This document shows, in pieces, positions 23,403-30,222 of a DNA stretch of 64,000 nt. Origin of the DNA: Gammaproteobacteria bacterium (GTDB lineage: Bacteria; Pseudomonadota; Gammaproteobacteria; JAKDMP01); contig JALUYA010000047.1 of the NCBI GenBank assembly GCA_027018875.1, positions 1 through 64,000 on the forward strand, given 5' to 3'. A program made the translations under genes and the position numbers. The notes beneath the pieces were generated by a model. It was not told the origin of the DNA. It made no database searches and saw nothing but the letters and a program-made list of their open reading frames with translations. Each line of letters opens with the position of its first letter. Position 1 is the stretch's first letter.

Positions 23403-24218
23403 ATGGCCGCAACCGATTCCACTCGCAGTATCGCCCTGTTTTGTGATTTTGAAAACGTGGCGCTCGGGGTGCGGGATGCGAAATTTGCCGCCTTTGATAT
23501 CCGCAAGGTTCTGGAACGGCTGCTGCTTAAGGGGAATATAGTCGTCAAGAAGGCCTACTGCGACTGGGAACGCTACAAGGAGTTCAAACCGGCGATGCAC
23601 GAGGCAGCTTTCGAGTTGATCGAAATCCCGCATGTCCGCATGTCGGGCAAGAACTCGGCTGATATTCGTATGGTGGTCGATGCGCTGGATCTTTGCTATA
23701 CCAAGTCGCATGTCGATACGTTCGTCATCATCAGCGGCGATTCGGATTTTTCCCCGCTGGTGAGCAAGTTACGCGAAAATAATAAATTGGTAATCGGTGT
23801 CGGCGTGAAAAGCTCCAGCTCCGATCTGCTGGTTTCGAACTGTGACGAGTTCATCTTCTACGATGATTTGGTCCGGGAAGCGGACAAGTCCCGGCGGCGC
23901 AAGCGCAAGCCTGCCCCCAAGGGCAGCGGCGGCAAAAAATCTCCCTCTCAAACCGAAGATGCCAAGCGCCAGGAGGCGTTCGACCTGGTCCTGGAAACCG
24001 TGGATGATCTGTTCAAGGAACGCGGCGATGAAGACAAGGTCTGGGGCTCGATGGTCAAACAGGCGATCAAACGCAGGAAACCCGGCTTCAACGAAAGTTA
24101 CCACGGTTTCCACAGCTTCGGCGAGCTGCTCGAAGAAGCCCGCGATAATGGCCTGCTGGAGCTGCACCCGGACGAGAAGTCCGGCGGCTATATCATTCGC
24201 TCCTACCACCGCGAATAA
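23403..24218 (+). CDS. NYN/PIN-like ribonuclease-domain protein with LOTUS (OST-HTH) tail
   Basis: 271 residues. The N-terminal NYN domain has its acidic metal-site residues: IALFCDFENVALG (D), NSADIRMVVDALDL (D) and FVIISGDSDFSPLV (D). A basic, low-complexity linker (SRRRKRKPAPKGSGGKK, near 162-180) leads to a C-terminal winged-helix segment, WGSMVKQAIKRRKPGFNESYHGFHSFGELLEEA, with the layout of OST-HTH/LOTUS domains. LabA/MARF1-type proteins of this layout bind and probably cut RNA. The RNA target in bacteria is unknown. The gene stands alone. Confidence 0.87.
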   Translation: MAATDSTRSIALFCDFENVALGVRDAKFAAFDIRKVLERLLLKGNIVVKKAYCDWERYKEFKPAMHEAAFELIEIPHVRMSGKNSADIRMVVDALDLCYTKSHVDTFVIISGDSDFSPLVSKLRENNKLVIGVGVKSSSSDLLVSNCDEFIFYDDLVREADKSRRRKRKPAPKGSGGKKSPSQTEDAKRQEAFDLVLETVDDLFKERGDEDKVWGSMVKQAIKRRKPGFNESYHGFHSFGELLEEARDNGLLELHPDEKSGGYIIRSYHRE

Positions 24219-24370: not shown

Positions 24371-24946
24371 CTATCCGAGAAATTCCACCGTCCCCGAATC
24401 CAGGTGGTAAAAAGCGCCTTCGATCCGCAGGATCCCCTCCCGGAATTTCGGGGCAAGAATCGGTGCCGCCGCTTTTAATTGCACCACTCCGCGCTTGATA
24501 TTTTCCCTGACGGCATTGTCAACCTTGTCGCCGGGCCGATCCGCCGCTTGTTCCACCGCCGGGCGGATGGCCTTGACCAGGGATTCGATCTTCCCCGGCG
24601 CCGTACCTCCCTGCACGGCGGCAGTGACGGCGCCACAGCGTTGGTGACCCAGGACAACGATCAATTGCACCCCCAGGTATGCCACGGCGTATTCGAGGCT
24701 CCCCACGATCATGTCGTTGACCAGGTTCCCCGCAACCCGCAGGACAAACAGGTCGCCCAGCCCCTGGTCAAAAATAATTTCCGGTGCGACTCTCGAATCG
24801 GCACAGCCGAGTATGCACGCAACGGGTTCCTGGCCCTGCGCTAACTTATTTCGCCGATCGGAGAATCGATTCGGGTTGCGGGAGCGTCCTTCCACGAACC
24901 GCTGATTTCCCGATACCAAGGCTCCGATAGCCTCTTTTGCGTACAT
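24371..24946 (-). CDS. Beta-class carbonic anhydrase
   Basis: 191 residues from the ATG at 24946 (AGAGGG upstream); the open frame extends to 25087 but the extra N-terminus is not family-like. The Zn ligands and dyad are in place: ILGCADSRVAPE (Cys, Asp-Arg) and VVLGHQRCGAVTAA (His, Cys). MYAKEAIGALVSGNQRFVEG is a typical N-terminus. It interconverts CO2 and bicarbonate in the cytoplasm, as required by autotrophs and by many heterotrophs for carboxylases. No signal peptide. A 50-bp motif shared with the clpB upstream region lies just upstream (24981-25033). Confidence 0.93.
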   Translation of the reverse strand: MYAKEAIGALVSGNQRFVEGRSRNPNRFSDRRNKLAQGQEPVACILGCADSRVAPEIIFDQGLGDLFVLRVAGNLVNDMIVGSLEYAVAYLGVQLIVVLGHQRCGAVTAAVQGGTAPGKIESLVKAIRPAVEQAADRPGDKVDNAVRENIKRGVVQLKAAAPILAPKFREGILRIEGAFYHLDSGTVEFLG

Positions 24947-24980
24947 ATCCCTCTCTGTTTCAAAAGAGCTGGGAAATAGT

Positions 24981-25033
24981 ATCAGAAATATTTTGTGCAC
25001 TTCCGCCGTACTCGTCGCGATTGTCCAAGCCCG
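24981..25033. repeat. Upstream motif shared with the clpB leader, copy 1
   Basis: TCAGAAATATTTTG, then GTACTCG and CGATTG..C....GCCCG at nearly the same spacing, occur here (35 nt upstream of the carbonic anhydrase start) and at 63121-63177 (upstream of clpB). Both genes are on the minus strand, so the shared orientation is CAAAATATTTCTGA proximal to the gene. It may be a promoter or leader element, or a small dispersed repeat. Confidence 0.5.
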
Positions 25034-25186
25034 GCAGGCTCCCGGAGATTTTTTGGCGGGAAGAGTTTTATTTTCTATCGGCTGCACCTATATGATCCGC
25101 TTGAATCCGATAGTGCTTCCCGCTTCCCGGAAAATTTCCCGGGTATGGCCCCCGGTATTTCCCGTTGTGAGCTCGGTGCCCCGGGA

Positions 25187-28063
25187 TTACACCGACATCA
25201 GCCGTCGACGCTCCAACTCGCCGCAATGGGCGAGAATCCAGGCCCGCGACTGTTCACTCAGATGCATTGCGGCCCGCAAGAGGTCGCTGGCATCACGCGG
25301 CGGCGATATCGGCGCGCCGATGCGCATGCCAATGGCTCCGGGGCGCGGCAGCCAATGGTGGGCCCGGAGTATCTCCCGCGTGCCGTGCACCGCGACCGGC
25401 ACGACCTGCAAATTCGCCCGCACGGCCGCAACGAAGGCCCCAAGGTGGAAGGGCAACAGCCCCGGAGCGGCGGTGAAAGTGCCTTCGGGAAAGAACACCA
25501 ACGTGCGCCCAGCCTGCGCGGCCTGCACGATTCGTTGCGCGTCCTGCACGCTTTCCCGGATCGCAAAACGCTCGACGAACTCACAGCCCAATCGGCGCAG
25601 AAGAACGCGCGGCACCAGCCGGTTCAGCAGCTCGCGCTTGGCAACAAACCCGTAGGGTCCGGGCAATGCGGCCAGCAGCGCCACCCCATCCAGGTAGCTG
25701 GAGTGGTTGACCACCATCACGAACGGCGTGTCGCGAGGCAGGTTATCCAGTCCCCGGACCACCAGCGACATGCCGCTCAGGCGCAGGAACAGTCGTGCCG
25801 CACGCCGATTGATCCACCACGCCTGCACCGGGCGACGTGTCAGCGCGGTCGCCAACCAGACCGGGGGGGCCATCAGCAGGGCCAACGACCAAGCGTACGC
25901 CGCGTAGCCCCCCTCGCGGAAGGCGCGTAGCCGGCGTTTCAACAGCGGCCACAACGCGCCACCCACAAGCCGCACCATCTGCCAACCAAACGCGGGAGGC
26001 CGCGTGCCGACTCGCCCGGCCTCGTAGAGGTCGCGGGTCGCCGAGCGCCGCAGCTTGCCACTGGAAGTCTTGAGTACGGTGCGCGGCGGAGCCAACACAA
26101 CTTCATCCGGGGGTTCGCCGAGCAGCTCGACCGTCACCCGGGTAATCTCCCCCCGCAAGCGGGCTCGGGTCTGCGCCCGGGTTTCACGCGTTTCGGCCAG
26201 TACCACCAGTCGCTCGGTGCCGTTCCTGCGATCCAGGCAGCCGAATGCGGCGACACAGCCGCGGCGAATTCCCGCCAGCCGTCCAACTACCTCTTCGATC
26301 TCGTGGGGATAGAGGTTCCGTCCGCCCCGCTGGATGATGTCTTTGACCCGTCCGGTGAGGTAGAATTCCTCGCCGACACGGTAGGCGCGATCGCCGGAAT
26401 CCAGCCAGTCGCCGGTGAACAGCTTCCGAGTTTGCTGCGGATCACGGTAATAGCCCTGGGTCGCCGACGGCCCCTTGAACTGCAACCGCCCCTCGATCCG
26501 TTCCCCGACTTCAGCTCCCGCGGCATCGACCAGGCGTACGGAATGCCCCGGCAACACCCGGCCGCAGTTGGCGAACTGTAATGTGGCGGGCTCATCCGCC
26601 GCTGCCGGCCGCGCCCGGCCGGTGCATAAAAACGGCTGCCGCTGTATTCGGTCGATTACCGGTTCCCGCCCCGGCGGCGGCGCCAGCAGGCCGACCGAGG
26701 CCTCGGCCAGGCCATACACCGGGGTCATCGCCGTGCGGCGGAATCCATAACGGCCGAAACGGGCCTGGAACCGTTCCAGGGTTTCGGGGACGACCGCCTC
26801 GGAGCCGTTCGCCGCCAGGCGCATCGAGGACAGGTCCAGGCCGTCCAGTTCCGACTCATCGATCCGCTTGGTGCACAGCTCATAGGCGAAATTAGGAGCC
26901 GCGGTAATGGTGCCCCGGTAGTGATGAATCGCCCACAGCCACCGCGACGGGCGGGCCAGGAAGGCCAGCGGAGGCATCACCACCAGTTGCGAGCCGAAGT
27001 ACAGGCTCCCCAGCCAGGCGGCGATCAGACCCATATCGTGATACAGCGGCAGCCAGCTGACGAACACATCTTGCGAGCTGATGTGTACCCCCGCGCCGAT
27101 CGCGCGCACATTGGCCAGCAGGTTGGCATGCGTCAGGACCACTCCCTTGGGATTTCCGGTGCTGCCCGAGGTGTACTGGATAAAGGCAATATCACTTCCC
27201 CGGGCCGGTATGCGGGCTGGGAGCCCGACGGATTCGCCCAGCATCGCGGGGGTGACGATGTGGCGTAACCCCGGCACATGCGCTTCCAGCAGGTGAGCAA
27301 CGACTATCGCCTCGGGGATCGTCACCAGGATTTGCGCTTCGGCATTGGCCAAAATGCGGGCGTGCCGGCGGATATGTTCTTGCAACTGCGAGCGCCGGGC
27401 CGGCGGATAGATCGGCACCGGCACACAGCCGGCCATCAACGCTCCGAAATAGGTGTAAAAATAGTCGCTCCCGGTAGGCAACATGATCGCCACCGTCTGC
27501 CCGTGCCCCAACCCCCGGGCCTGGAGACCGACGGCAAAGCTGGCCGCGCGTTCGTGCAGGCGCCGGTAGCTGATGCGCTCGACGCGCCCATCCTGTGGAT
27601 CGTCACCATAAATCAGCTGGATTCGATCGGGGTGGCGCTCGACGTGCCAGTCCAACACCTCCAGCAATGTCGCCAGGTTTTCCGGTGGCGGCGCGATTGC
27701 CGCCGCCGTGGCCGGAGCCTCGTCCCGGGCCACGACCGGCAACGAGGGCACCTCCACCCGACCCACCCGCTGCAGCGCCTGCACCAGGTCTGTCGGCCTC
27801 TCCGCAGTTTCGAGAACACCGGGGGGCATCCGGATGGAAAACATTCGCTCCAGGCGCAACAATAACTCCACCCGCGCCAGGCTGTCGAAACCCCAGTCGC
27901 GATCCAGGCTGCTGTTGAGTGTTAATGTGCCCGCCGCCGCACCACCCGGGTGCAGATCGGCATAGGTTCGACGCACTACCGCGAGTACCGCTTCGGCGAG
28001 ATCGGCCGGGGGCGACTCTACGGATTGCGCCGATTCCCGGGACCGCTTCGGATCCGGCGTCAC
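25187..28063 (-). CDS. ACP - fatty acyl-AMP ligase (FAAL) - PlsC acyltransferase fusion
   Basis: 958 residues, GTG start with GAGGG upstream. Domain 1 (~20-95) is an acyl carrier protein with DRDWGFDSLARVELLL (Ser61 phosphopantetheine site). Domain 2 (~125-690) is an adenylating enzyme of the FAAL/long-chain acyl-CoA-synthetase group: FIQYTSGSTGNPKGVVLTH, YGLAEASVG, DWLDSGDRAY, KDIIQRGGRNLYPHEIE and LKTSSGKLRR. Domain 3 (~770-958) is a PlsC/LPLAT acyltransferase with NHSSYLD and FFPEGTFTAAPG. By logic, a fatty acid is activated as acyl-AMP, loaded onto the fused ACP and handed to a lysophosphatidate-type or other acceptor. The ACP at the N-terminus is unusual. No polyketide genes are adjacent. 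The physiological acceptor is unknown. Confidence 0.9.
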   Translation of the reverse strand: MTPDPKRSRESAQSVESPPADLAEAVLAVVRRTYADLHPGGAAAGTLTLNSSLDRDWGFDSLARVELLLRLERMFSIRMPPGVLETAERPTDLVQALQRVGRVEVPSLPVVARDEAPATAAAIAPPPENLATLLEVLDWHVERHPDRIQLIYGDDPQDGRVERISYRRLHERAASFAVGLQARGLGHGQTVAIMLPTGSDYFYTYFGALMAGCVPVPIYPPARRSQLQEHIRRHARILANAEAQILVTIPEAIVVAHLLEAHVPGLRHIVTPAMLGESVGLPARIPARGSDIAFIQYTSGSTGNPKGVVLTHANLLANVRAIGAGVHISSQDVFVSWLPLYHDMGLIAAWLGSLYFGSQLVVMPPLAFLARPSRWLWAIHHYRGTITAAPNFAYELCTKRIDESELDGLDLSSMRLAANGSEAVVPETLERFQARFGRYGFRRTAMTPVYGLAEASVGLLAPPPGREPVIDRIQRQPFLCTGRARPAAADEPATLQFANCGRVLPGHSVRLVDAAGAEVGERIEGRLQFKGPSATQGYYRDPQQTRKLFTGDWLDSGDRAYRVGEEFYLTGRVKDIIQRGGRNLYPHEIEEVVGRLAGIRRGCVAAFGCLDRRNGTERLVVLAETRETRAQTRARLRGEITRVTVELLGEPPDEVVLAPPRTVLKTSSGKLRRSATRDLYEAGRVGTRPPAFGWQMVRLVGGALWPLLKRRLRAFREGGYAAYAWSLALLMAPPVWLATALTRRPVQAWWINRRAARLFLRLSGMSLVVRGLDNLPRDTPFVMVVNHSSYLDGVALLAALPGPYGFVAKRELLNRLVPRVLLRRLGCEFVERFAIRESVQDAQRIVQAAQAGRTLVFFPEGTFTAAPGLLPFHLGAFVAAVRANLQVVPVAVHGTREILRAHHWLPRPGAIGMRIGAPISPPRDASDLLRAAMHLSEQSRAWILAHCGELERRRLMSV

Positions 28064-28311: not shown

Positions 28312-30222
28312 CTATGGGATATTTTTCTTTTCTATCGCAATATCGGCACGCTTTCTTAGCCAGGATAAATAACTTGCCGTCAAGGTTTGGGCGTTGATTT
28401 GCGCAATTTGTGTCTGGTAAATCTCGGCCTCCGGTTTCTTCAAGTCGTTTATCCGGCCCGGCTCTACCTTGGTCAGTTCATAGATGAGCGGGGTGCCGTT
28501 ACCCAGCTCTACCAGTCCGAACTGCGGCTTGCCTCGAGGATTCGGTGCGAGGGAGAAAACGGCGGCAACCAGCTCAGGCGGTAATTTAGCGGCCCCCCGA
28601 GATACGATTTTCGGGCCCACGAGCTTCAGCCGCAGAGATTTCATGACATTTTCAATAGGTTCGCCGGCTTCAATCTTGGTTAACGCCTGTTTCGCGGCAC
28701 GGTGGGCATTCGCGATCGTTTCCTGTCGCAACAACAGGGCGATTATTTTGGATTTCACCCGGGCCAGCGGTTTGACCCGGCTCTTGTGTACCTGGGCAAC
28801 TCGCAGAACCACGGCGTTTTGCGGTCCCATTTTCACCGGAGCGCTATTCATGCCCTGGTCTAGCACCAAGGGACTAAAGGCGGCTTTCCTGATCGCCTTG
28901 GAGCCCGCGATTCCGCTACCGGAATTGCGCGTGACCCCGGAAATGGAATGCACCTTGAGCCCCAGTTCCTTGGTTATCGGTACAAGCGATCCCGGGTGCT
29001 CATAGGCCAGGTTGGCGAGTTTATCGCCCAACTGGTAATAAAGTTTTTTTGTCTGCTCGGCACGATAGGCTGCAATCACCTTGTTTTTTACCGCGGCGAA
29101 CGGTTGCACGGATCCCGGGCGTATTCCCAGCAACCGGATCAAGCTCCAGCCACTCGCCGTCTTTACGGGTCCCGCCACCTGGCCCTTCTTAGCGATCGAG
29201 AAAAGGGCCTTCCCAAAGCCGTTATTTACCTGCCCCCGGGCGATCCACCCCATGGACCCCCCATTGCGACGGGAGATAAGATCATCCGAATATTTCCGCG
29301 CTAATTCTGCGAACCGCTTTTCGCCGGGAGTTTTCTCATGATAAATCTCCAGGATATGCTCCGCCTTTTCCCTGGCTTCGGCCCAGCCCTGGGGTGAGTC
29401 GTTCTTGGGTTTGATTAAAATCTGTGCCGCTTTTCGTGCCGCGGGAATACCGTAGAGAATTTGATTGGTCTCATAAAACGATTGCAACTCCTGCGGCGTT
29501 ATCTTGACTCTTTTTTCAAGTTCCGTTTTGTCAAGCTGCACATAATTCAGGGTTACGGTTTCCGGAAGAACAAAACTCTGTTGATGTGCTCGATAATAAG
29601 CGGAAATCATTTTCGCATCGGGAGCCGCGCCCGGGTATCGGGAAAGAGGGAATGCGCCCCACAGTGCCGTCCTCTTTTCCTTGAGCAGGGAAATCATGGA
29701 TGTAAATTCCACCGGCGTTACGAATACGGTGGCGGCGAGCCCGCCCTGCAATTGCCGGACAAGCAATTGCCGTGCGACACGCGCCTCGAACGCATCCGGA
29801 CTCAGGCCATTGGACGCAAGCACCGCTTGGTACTGCGCCAAGTTGAATTTTCCGTTGGACTGGAAGGCGGAAATTTGATCGATCTCAGCCCTAATCTCGG
29901 GTTTCAATGTCACCATGTGATCGGCTTGCGCCTGTTGCAAGAGTAAAGTTTGATTGATCAGTTGCTGCAGCACCTGCTGCTTGAGTGTTTTCTCCTGTGC
30001 GGGGGAGAGATCCCCGTCGGGGGATGCTTGCTGGTAGGCCTGCCGATAAGCATCCTGAAAGACATTCGGCATGATTTTCTCGCCATTGACCTTGGCGACG
30101 TAGTTGGCTATCACCAAGCTGCTGAATTGGCCGACACCAAAGAAAACAAAGGGAATGGAAACGAGTATCACAAAGGCCCAGGCAATCAGGCCCTTGGTAT
30201 GTTTACGAAAAACAGCCAGCAT
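28312..30222 (-). CDS. ppiD: PpiD-type periplasmic folding chaperone / peptidyl-prolyl isomerase
   Basis: 636 residues. A short cytoplasmic start (MLAVFRKHTKGL), one N-terminal transmembrane helix (13-35), a SurA_N-like chaperone region, then a parvulin rotamase domain around 250-355 (ARKAAQILIKPKN ... GGSMGWIARGQVNNGFGKALF) and a second, degenerate half. The architecture equals PpiD, the inner-membrane-anchored chaperone at the Sec translocon exit. The position downstream of lon and hupB on the same strand is the conserved gammaproteobacterial order, here interrupted by two tRNA genes and a terminator. AGGAG lies 11 nt before the ATG. Confidence 0.93.
   Translation of the reverse strand: MLAVFRKHTKGLIAWAFVILVSIPFVFFGVGQFSSLVIANYVAKVNGEKIMPNVFQDAYRQAYQQASPDGDLSPAQEKTLKQQVLQQLINQTLLLQQAQADHMVTLKPEIRAEIDQISAFQSNGKFNLAQYQAVLASNGLSPDAFEARVARQLLVRQLQGGLAATVFVTPVEFTSMISLLKEKRTALWGAFPLSRYPGAAPDAKMISAYYRAHQQSFVLPETVTLNYVQLDKTELEKRVKITPQELQSFYETNQILYGIPAARKAAQILIKPKNDSPQGWAEAREKAEHILEIYHEKTPGEKRFAELARKYSDDLISRRNGGSMGWIARGQVNNGFGKALFSIAKKGQVAGPVKTASGWSLIRLLGIRPGSVQPFAAVKNKVIAAYRAEQTKKLYYQLGDKLANLAYEHPGSLVPITKELGLKVHSISGVTRNSGSGIAGSKAIRKAAFSPLVLDQGMNSAPVKMGPQNAVVLRVAQVHKSRVKPLARVKSKIIALLLRQETIANAHRAAKQALTKIEAGEPIENVMKSLRLKLVGPKIVSRGAAKLPPELVAAVFSLAPNPRGKPQFGLVELGNGTPLIYELTKVEPGRINDLKKPEAEIYQTQIAQINAQTLTASYLSWLRKRADIAIEKKNIP

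Follow-up and report, generated by a model that had tools for sequence, protein, structure and literature searches.

Within the window, the 64,000-nucleotide stretch of gammaproteobacterial DNA analysed here, one gene encodes a protein in which a carrier domain, a fatty acyl-AMP ligase (FAAL) and a PlsC-type acyltransferase follow each other on a single chain. With modest confidence, it is considered probable that this protein is a CoA-independent acyl-activating acyltransferase, which salvages fatty acids and repairs lysophospholipids like Aas of E. coli, using an ACP of its own. The order of the reaction, adenylation followed by carrier loading and acyl transfer, is derived from the domain content. 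Here, the FAAL domain would adenylate a free fatty acid with ATP to yield acyl-AMP, and the acyl group would then be passed in cis to the phosphopantetheine arm that Ser61 bears in the protein's own N-terminal carrier. The loaded carrier would swing to the C-terminal PlsC domain, presumably bound to the membrane, which would then esterify (O-acylate) a lyso-lipid. As acceptor, a lysophospholipid is most likely, as we infer from the considerations below. An earlier, sequence-only reading of this DNA had suggested an Aas-like recycling of fatty acids with an ACP at the N-terminus, which we infer to be the best-supported role.

The features of the locus, in positions of the window, are the following.

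25187..28063, minus strand: whole gene, 958 amino acids, GTG start at 28063
27773..27934, minus strand: carrier (PP-binding) domain, residues 44-97 (PF00550)
27881-27883, minus strand: phosphopantetheine Ser61 within GFDSL, invariant in 53/53 aligned proteins
25994..27691, minus strand: FAAL-type acyl-AMP ligase, residues about 125-690 (PF00501, with FAALs as best PDB matches)
26951..26971, minus strand: FAAL-specific helix, residues 365-371, aligned to T252-R258 of the E. coli FAAL
25775..25990, minus strand: two-helix linker of the predicted model, residues 692-740 and 745-763, partly hydrophobic
25187..25768, minus strand: PlsC/LPLAT domain, residues 766-958 (PF01553; TmPlsC 5KYM, E 5e-20), with the motifs NHSSYLD (786-792), AKRE (808-811), R832 and FPEG (858-861)
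24371-25087: beta carbonic anhydrase, downstream neighbour of the fused gene
28312-30222: PpiD/SurA-like PPIase, upstream neighbour of the fused gene

The minus strand of 25187-28063 is a single open reading frame, whereas the plus strand contains six in-frame stops. Upstream of the GTG at 28063 the frame stays open for 24 more codons without an ATG, GTG or TTG, and the start codon is putative; whatever the true start, the carrier domain lies well inside the frame. All three Pfam hits exceed the Pfam cut-offs (PP-binding at 44-97, E 8.5e-7; AMP-binding at 138-539, 5e-73; Acyltransferase at 768-892, 8e-26). Thus, the reading frame and the Pfam hits confirm the fusion of carrier (Ser61), ligase and PlsC domain that had been noticed from the sequence. 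Each of the three domains retains its catalytic residues. An AlphaFold2 model, built with 53 sequences in the alignment, has a mean pLDDT of 87.5 and a pTM of 0.77 and displays two long helices (692-740 and 745-763) before the PlsC domain. A two-helix membrane motif is also known in PlsC. Judged from the model, the linker 692-763 is probably associated with the membrane, on its surface or within it.

The gene had been described as standing alone, which is borne out by its neighbours, a carbonic anhydrase and a PPIase; no lipid gene is present among its neighbours in the window. Farther upstream follow genes that we take, from their translations, to be lon, clpX, clpP and trigger factor. Signals of promoters or terminators did not rise above chance. 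Next to the carbonic anhydrase gene, an NYN-domain protein is encoded (23403-24218, plus strand), which weakly matches TIGR00288.

The fusion is not restricted to this genome. A survey of domain fusions, as suggested before, revealed the full architecture in 64 of the 369 genomes covered from this class, in 66 full-length places that all score at least 1128 bits (one of these, G088, starts at the edge of a contig). The next-best places reach no more than 724 bits and are either partial or confined to the ligase. Within the set of 37 genomes comprising the window's own and its nearest ones, a full-length relative is present in 5 of the 36 others and is absent from the only other genome of the same family. 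At least 80 loci from a named scan, which is not a census and in which many records are metagenome bins with possible mislabelling, carry the labels Pseudomonadota, Thermodesulfobacteriota, Nitrospirota, Acidobacteriota, Actinomycetota and Candidatus Tectimicrobiota. Together with 60 loci fetched by place and the window, the 80 named loci give 141, which are not all independent (L027 and L138 probably represent one contig). In 133 of the 141, the window included, one BLAST segment runs from query residue 70 or before to residue 900 or beyond; the remaining eight are cut by contig ends or, in L046, broken in frame. Some frames are longer (L193, L097, L052 and L195), which seems due to read-through of the open frame in the upstream direction. 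Plasmid records carry the gene as well (10 records, 9 of them covering at least 80%). In databases, the protein is named only "AMP-binding protein".

Since the three-domain order recurs at 42-57% identity, near full length and in many genomes, chance and an artefact of assembly can both be dismissed. Among 48 ligase domains placed in a tree, whose outer rows sit on long branches, the 37 fused ones lie on one side of a branch with a support of 89/95. A single origin of the fusion, followed by later spread between phyla, fits these data. From the 64 of 369 genomes and the 37 fused ligases on one side of this branch, selection seems to keep the three parts on one chain. A stand-alone PlsC of 252 amino acids (L208:6730-7488, minus strand) is 46% identical to the fused PlsC domain and represents either a fusion reduced to its last domain or an unfused form. 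It adjoins frames that we take to be xerD- and dsbC-like, and presumably xerD-like frames also lie near the fused loci L141, L164, L176 and L194.

Within the PlsC domain, the HX4D (NHxSxxD) and FPEG motifs characteristic of the LPLAT/PlsC superfamily are present. H787, D792, R832, E860 and G861 are invariant in 53/53 aligned proteins, and Lys809 is found in 51/53. The catalytic motifs of the domain are thus kept. Its sole match among PDB sequences is TmPlsC 5KYM, which presumably stems from Thermotoga. The cut-offs of the specific family models are not reached: the LPAAT models give 83.4 of 102.95 bits (TIGR00530) and 29.9 of 501 (PRK15018), the Aas models 159 of 1221 (PRK08633) and 141 of 1349 (PRK06814), and the OlsA models 57.2 and 49.3 of 300 bits. 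As a control, Aas of E. coli scores 1527 bits against an Aas cut-off of 886. By these model scores, the fused protein falls outside the Aas, PlsC and OlsA families.

The third motif reads FPEGTFT here, in comparison to FPEGTRS in PlsC and FPEGRIT in Aas, a difference that counts against the Aas-like reading. The arginine of FPEGTRS probably helps in binding the phosphate of LPA; at this position, phenylalanine is present in the fused protein and in 43/53 aligned proteins. The exchange also bears on a rather unlikely alternative, namely that LPA is the acceptor and that free fatty acids are fed straight into phosphatidic acid, the fused protein serving as another PlsC in the second step of phospholipid synthesis. 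It would fit to this that the best model of the PlsC domain is the LPAAT model TIGR00530 (83 bits) and that the domain matches TmPlsC with an E value of 5e-20. However, the score lies below the cut-off of 103 bits, the arginine is replaced, and the genome holds other LPAAT candidates.

These candidates belong to a larger set of lipid genes in the window's genome, which comprises PlsY, a YihG-type LPAAT (352 bits against a cut-off of 260), a GmhB-PlsC fusion and an OlsB-OlsA-like pair scoring under the OlsA and OlsB cut-offs. In addition, one AcpS-type PPTase is present, a candidate for loading Ser61. No match to Aas was obtained in this genome at E<=1e-70. PldA gave no match there either, which was counted against the lysophospholipid-repair reading. 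Due to the separate PlsY, YihG, GmhB-PlsC and OlsB/OlsA-like genes, de novo and aminolipid acylation look covered by other genes. Together with the missing match to Aas, this would leave fatty-acid salvage and repair of lyso-lipids as the open niche and as the most plausible job of the fused protein. On contig C5 of the same genome, a further PlsC-like protein (L200:1231-2166, minus strand) is encoded beside glycosyltransferase-like and LpxL-like frames, in what looks to us like part of an aryl-polyene type cluster.

It is improbable that the protein makes a special lipid, by transferring the acyl group onto a lyso-aminolipid, a glycolipid or another head. The OlsA model is indeed the second-best match of the PlsC part, and FAALs as a rule channel fatty acids into special products, as a passage of Patil et al. 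(PMC8460268) describes. On the contrary, the OlsA match of 57 bits stands against a cut-off of 300, the genome's own OlsB-OlsA-like pair lies elsewhere, and biosynthetic neighbours are not conserved in the 141 loci. The earlier suggestion of an "unusual lipid" therefore found no support, since no lipid cluster adjoins the gene and the OlsB-OlsA-like pair is separate.

In the proposed reaction, the ligase would work without CoA. The best PDB sequence matches of the ligase are FAALs, namely the cyanobacterial olefin synthase FAAL, the E. coli FAAL (3PBK) and the Legionella FAAL. Also on the fold level, 3PBK is the best match of the AlphaFold2 model (TM 0.91 on target), and among the best 50 fold matches the ranks 1-41 are FAAL, FadD or NRPS adenylation domains, the first CoA-synthetase entry following at rank 42. 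According to passages of Patil et al. (2021; PMC8460268), FAALs exclude CoA via bulky residues and a FAAL-specific helix, and holo-ACP is admitted by a proline- and threonine-lined pocket. By alignment, the residues plugging the CoA pocket of EcFAAL (W224, M231 and F279) map to W337, M344 and F392 here, and those of the alternative pocket (P226, P107 and T83) to P339, P221 and T197. All 53 aligned proteins share W337, P339 and F392, 51 have M344, and 48 have a threonine at the position of T197; the catalytic Lys670 is invariant in 53/53. The FAAL-specific helix at the pocket entrance is present at 365-371 by alignment and at 365-370 in the AlphaFold2 model, with a proline (P365) at the position of T252 of EcFAAL. 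In the region of the FAAL-specific insertion of the N-terminal part, whose ends are set only approximately, the comparison was made to a FAAL, 3PBK, to which residues 364-569 align without gaps.

By its nearest structures and its putative CoA-rejecting residues, the ligase is of the FAAL type. As far as the sequence tells, this agrees with the bypass of CoA proposed before. An ordinary acyl-CoA synthetase, with the carrier and PlsC domains being incidental, is very improbable. In its favour, the best NCBIfam match of the ligase is a subfamily named long-chain-fatty-acid--CoA ligase (PRK07768; 391 bits, under a cut-off of 572). Against it, the FAAL-type pocket residues and helix are present and conserved, the nearest structures are FAALs and the carrier Ser61 is invariant in 53/53.

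The closest functional comparison for the proposed salvage enzyme is Aas (acyl-ACP synthetase / 2-acyl-GPE acyltransferase, E. coli b2836), which likewise combines an ATP-dependent, acyl-ACP-forming ligase and a PlsC-like acyltransferase in one chain; the fused protein would also re-acylate lysophospholipids with free fatty acid. In contrast, the order in Aas is PlsC followed by ligase, which is reversed in the fused protein with its own ACP. Further, the Aas ligase lies outside the FAAL group in the tree, on a long branch, and the fused protein fails the Aas models. A mutual exclusion, in which the fused protein replaces Aas, was considered and rejected. After 14 partial Aas places (ligase part only) had been set aside, Aas with both domains was found in 17/64 carriers of the fused gene and 90/305 non-carriers (odds ratio 0.86, p 0.76). 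The presence of the fused protein is thus independent of Aas, so that it is not a simple replacement, and about a quarter of the carriers hold both. In passages of the literature, Aas is described as binding ACP without a carrier domain of its own and as being paired with the transporter LplT in E. coli (PMC13170283).

In E. coli, the gene of LplT, itself an MFS protein, adjoins aas, and the fused gene, too, sometimes has an MFS gene next to it. No conserved operon surrounds the fused gene in the 141 loci, and the protein most often encoded close by is an ATG22/UMF1-family MFS protein, in nine loci of Beta- and Gammaproteobacteria and Desulfobacterota (eight within 100 bases by the frames used). 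In the tree, from which L213 was dropped (a frame of only 236 amino acids) and in whose second run L231 (290 amino acids) was left out, eight of the nine group together, apart from the UMF1 proteins beside Aas. One MFS subfamily serving both Aas and the fused protein is not supported by these separate branches.

The close MFS subfamily (at least 518 bits) occurs in 11/64 carriers and 23/305 non-carriers (p 0.03, uncorrected for kinship); thus, the fused gene occurs in 11 of the 34 genomes with this subfamily, in comparison to 53 of the other 335. In none of these 11 carriers is it adjacent to the fused gene. PF11700 was found in 42/64 carriers and 127/305 non-carriers (p 5e-4, also uncorrected for kinship), and, among the matches listed, 3 of the 38 carriers that have an MFS place show it next to the fused gene. 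The window's genome lacks the close subfamily; its UMF1 protein adjoins a gene that we take to be thiI. Taken together, the UMF1 protein beside the fused gene is a lead to a partner flippase and no more, the link being weak.

Two further observations concern gene neighbourhoods. Among the matches listed, 7 of 37 genomes with both encode a UMF1/ATG22-family MFS protein no more than 2.5 kb away from Aas (L213, L214, L215, L216, L217, L218 and L219), at the place where LplT would be expected; this MFS protein is a candidate alternative lysophospholipid flippase. Furthermore, an AMP-binding acyl ligase of about 600 amino acids is encoded within 2.5 kb of the fused gene in 8/141 loci (for example L143, L145, L147, L157 and L158), one member of which, L057, was domain-scanned.

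Other known systems share parts of this architecture. The FAAL-ACP didomains of PKS and NRPS systems (FadD32, the olefin synthase FAAL, EcFAAL) have the same ligase fold and CoA-rejecting features. They feed a PKS or NRPS, whereas the fused protein has its carrier on the N-terminal side of the ligase and a PlsC acyltransferase as partner. PlsC, OlsA and YihG of the LPLAT family share the HX4D and FPEG motifs as well as two helices preceding the domain; these enzymes stand alone and depend on other enzymes for their acyl-ACP or acyl-CoA. In a single sentence, Patil et al. (2021; PMC8460268) list a fusion of FAAL and lysophospholipid acyltransferase as a unique bacterial domain organisation, which is probably of the same kind as the fused protein; that passage gives neither a function nor a carrier domain. 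A functional study of the fused protein was not found in a literature search, most subscription journals being outside its reach. By sequence, the fused protein is a widespread, uncharacterised relative of a known kind of enzyme, and the fusion has already been mentioned in print.

Tentatively, the fused protein may represent a second, independently built bacterial system for lysophospholipid repair, which would be self-contained, would need neither CoA nor the free ACP of the cell and would be accompanied in some lineages by a UMF1/ATG22 MFS flippase, in parallel to LplT-Aas and sometimes in the same cell. If the salvage reading is true, a widespread "AMP-binding protein" would be a one-chain enzyme for fatty-acid salvage and membrane repair. 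It would further offer a simple system for studying how an acyl chain travels on a carrier domain from a ligase to an acyltransferase of the membrane, and it would explain the re-use of fatty acids without CoA in some bacteria without Aas.
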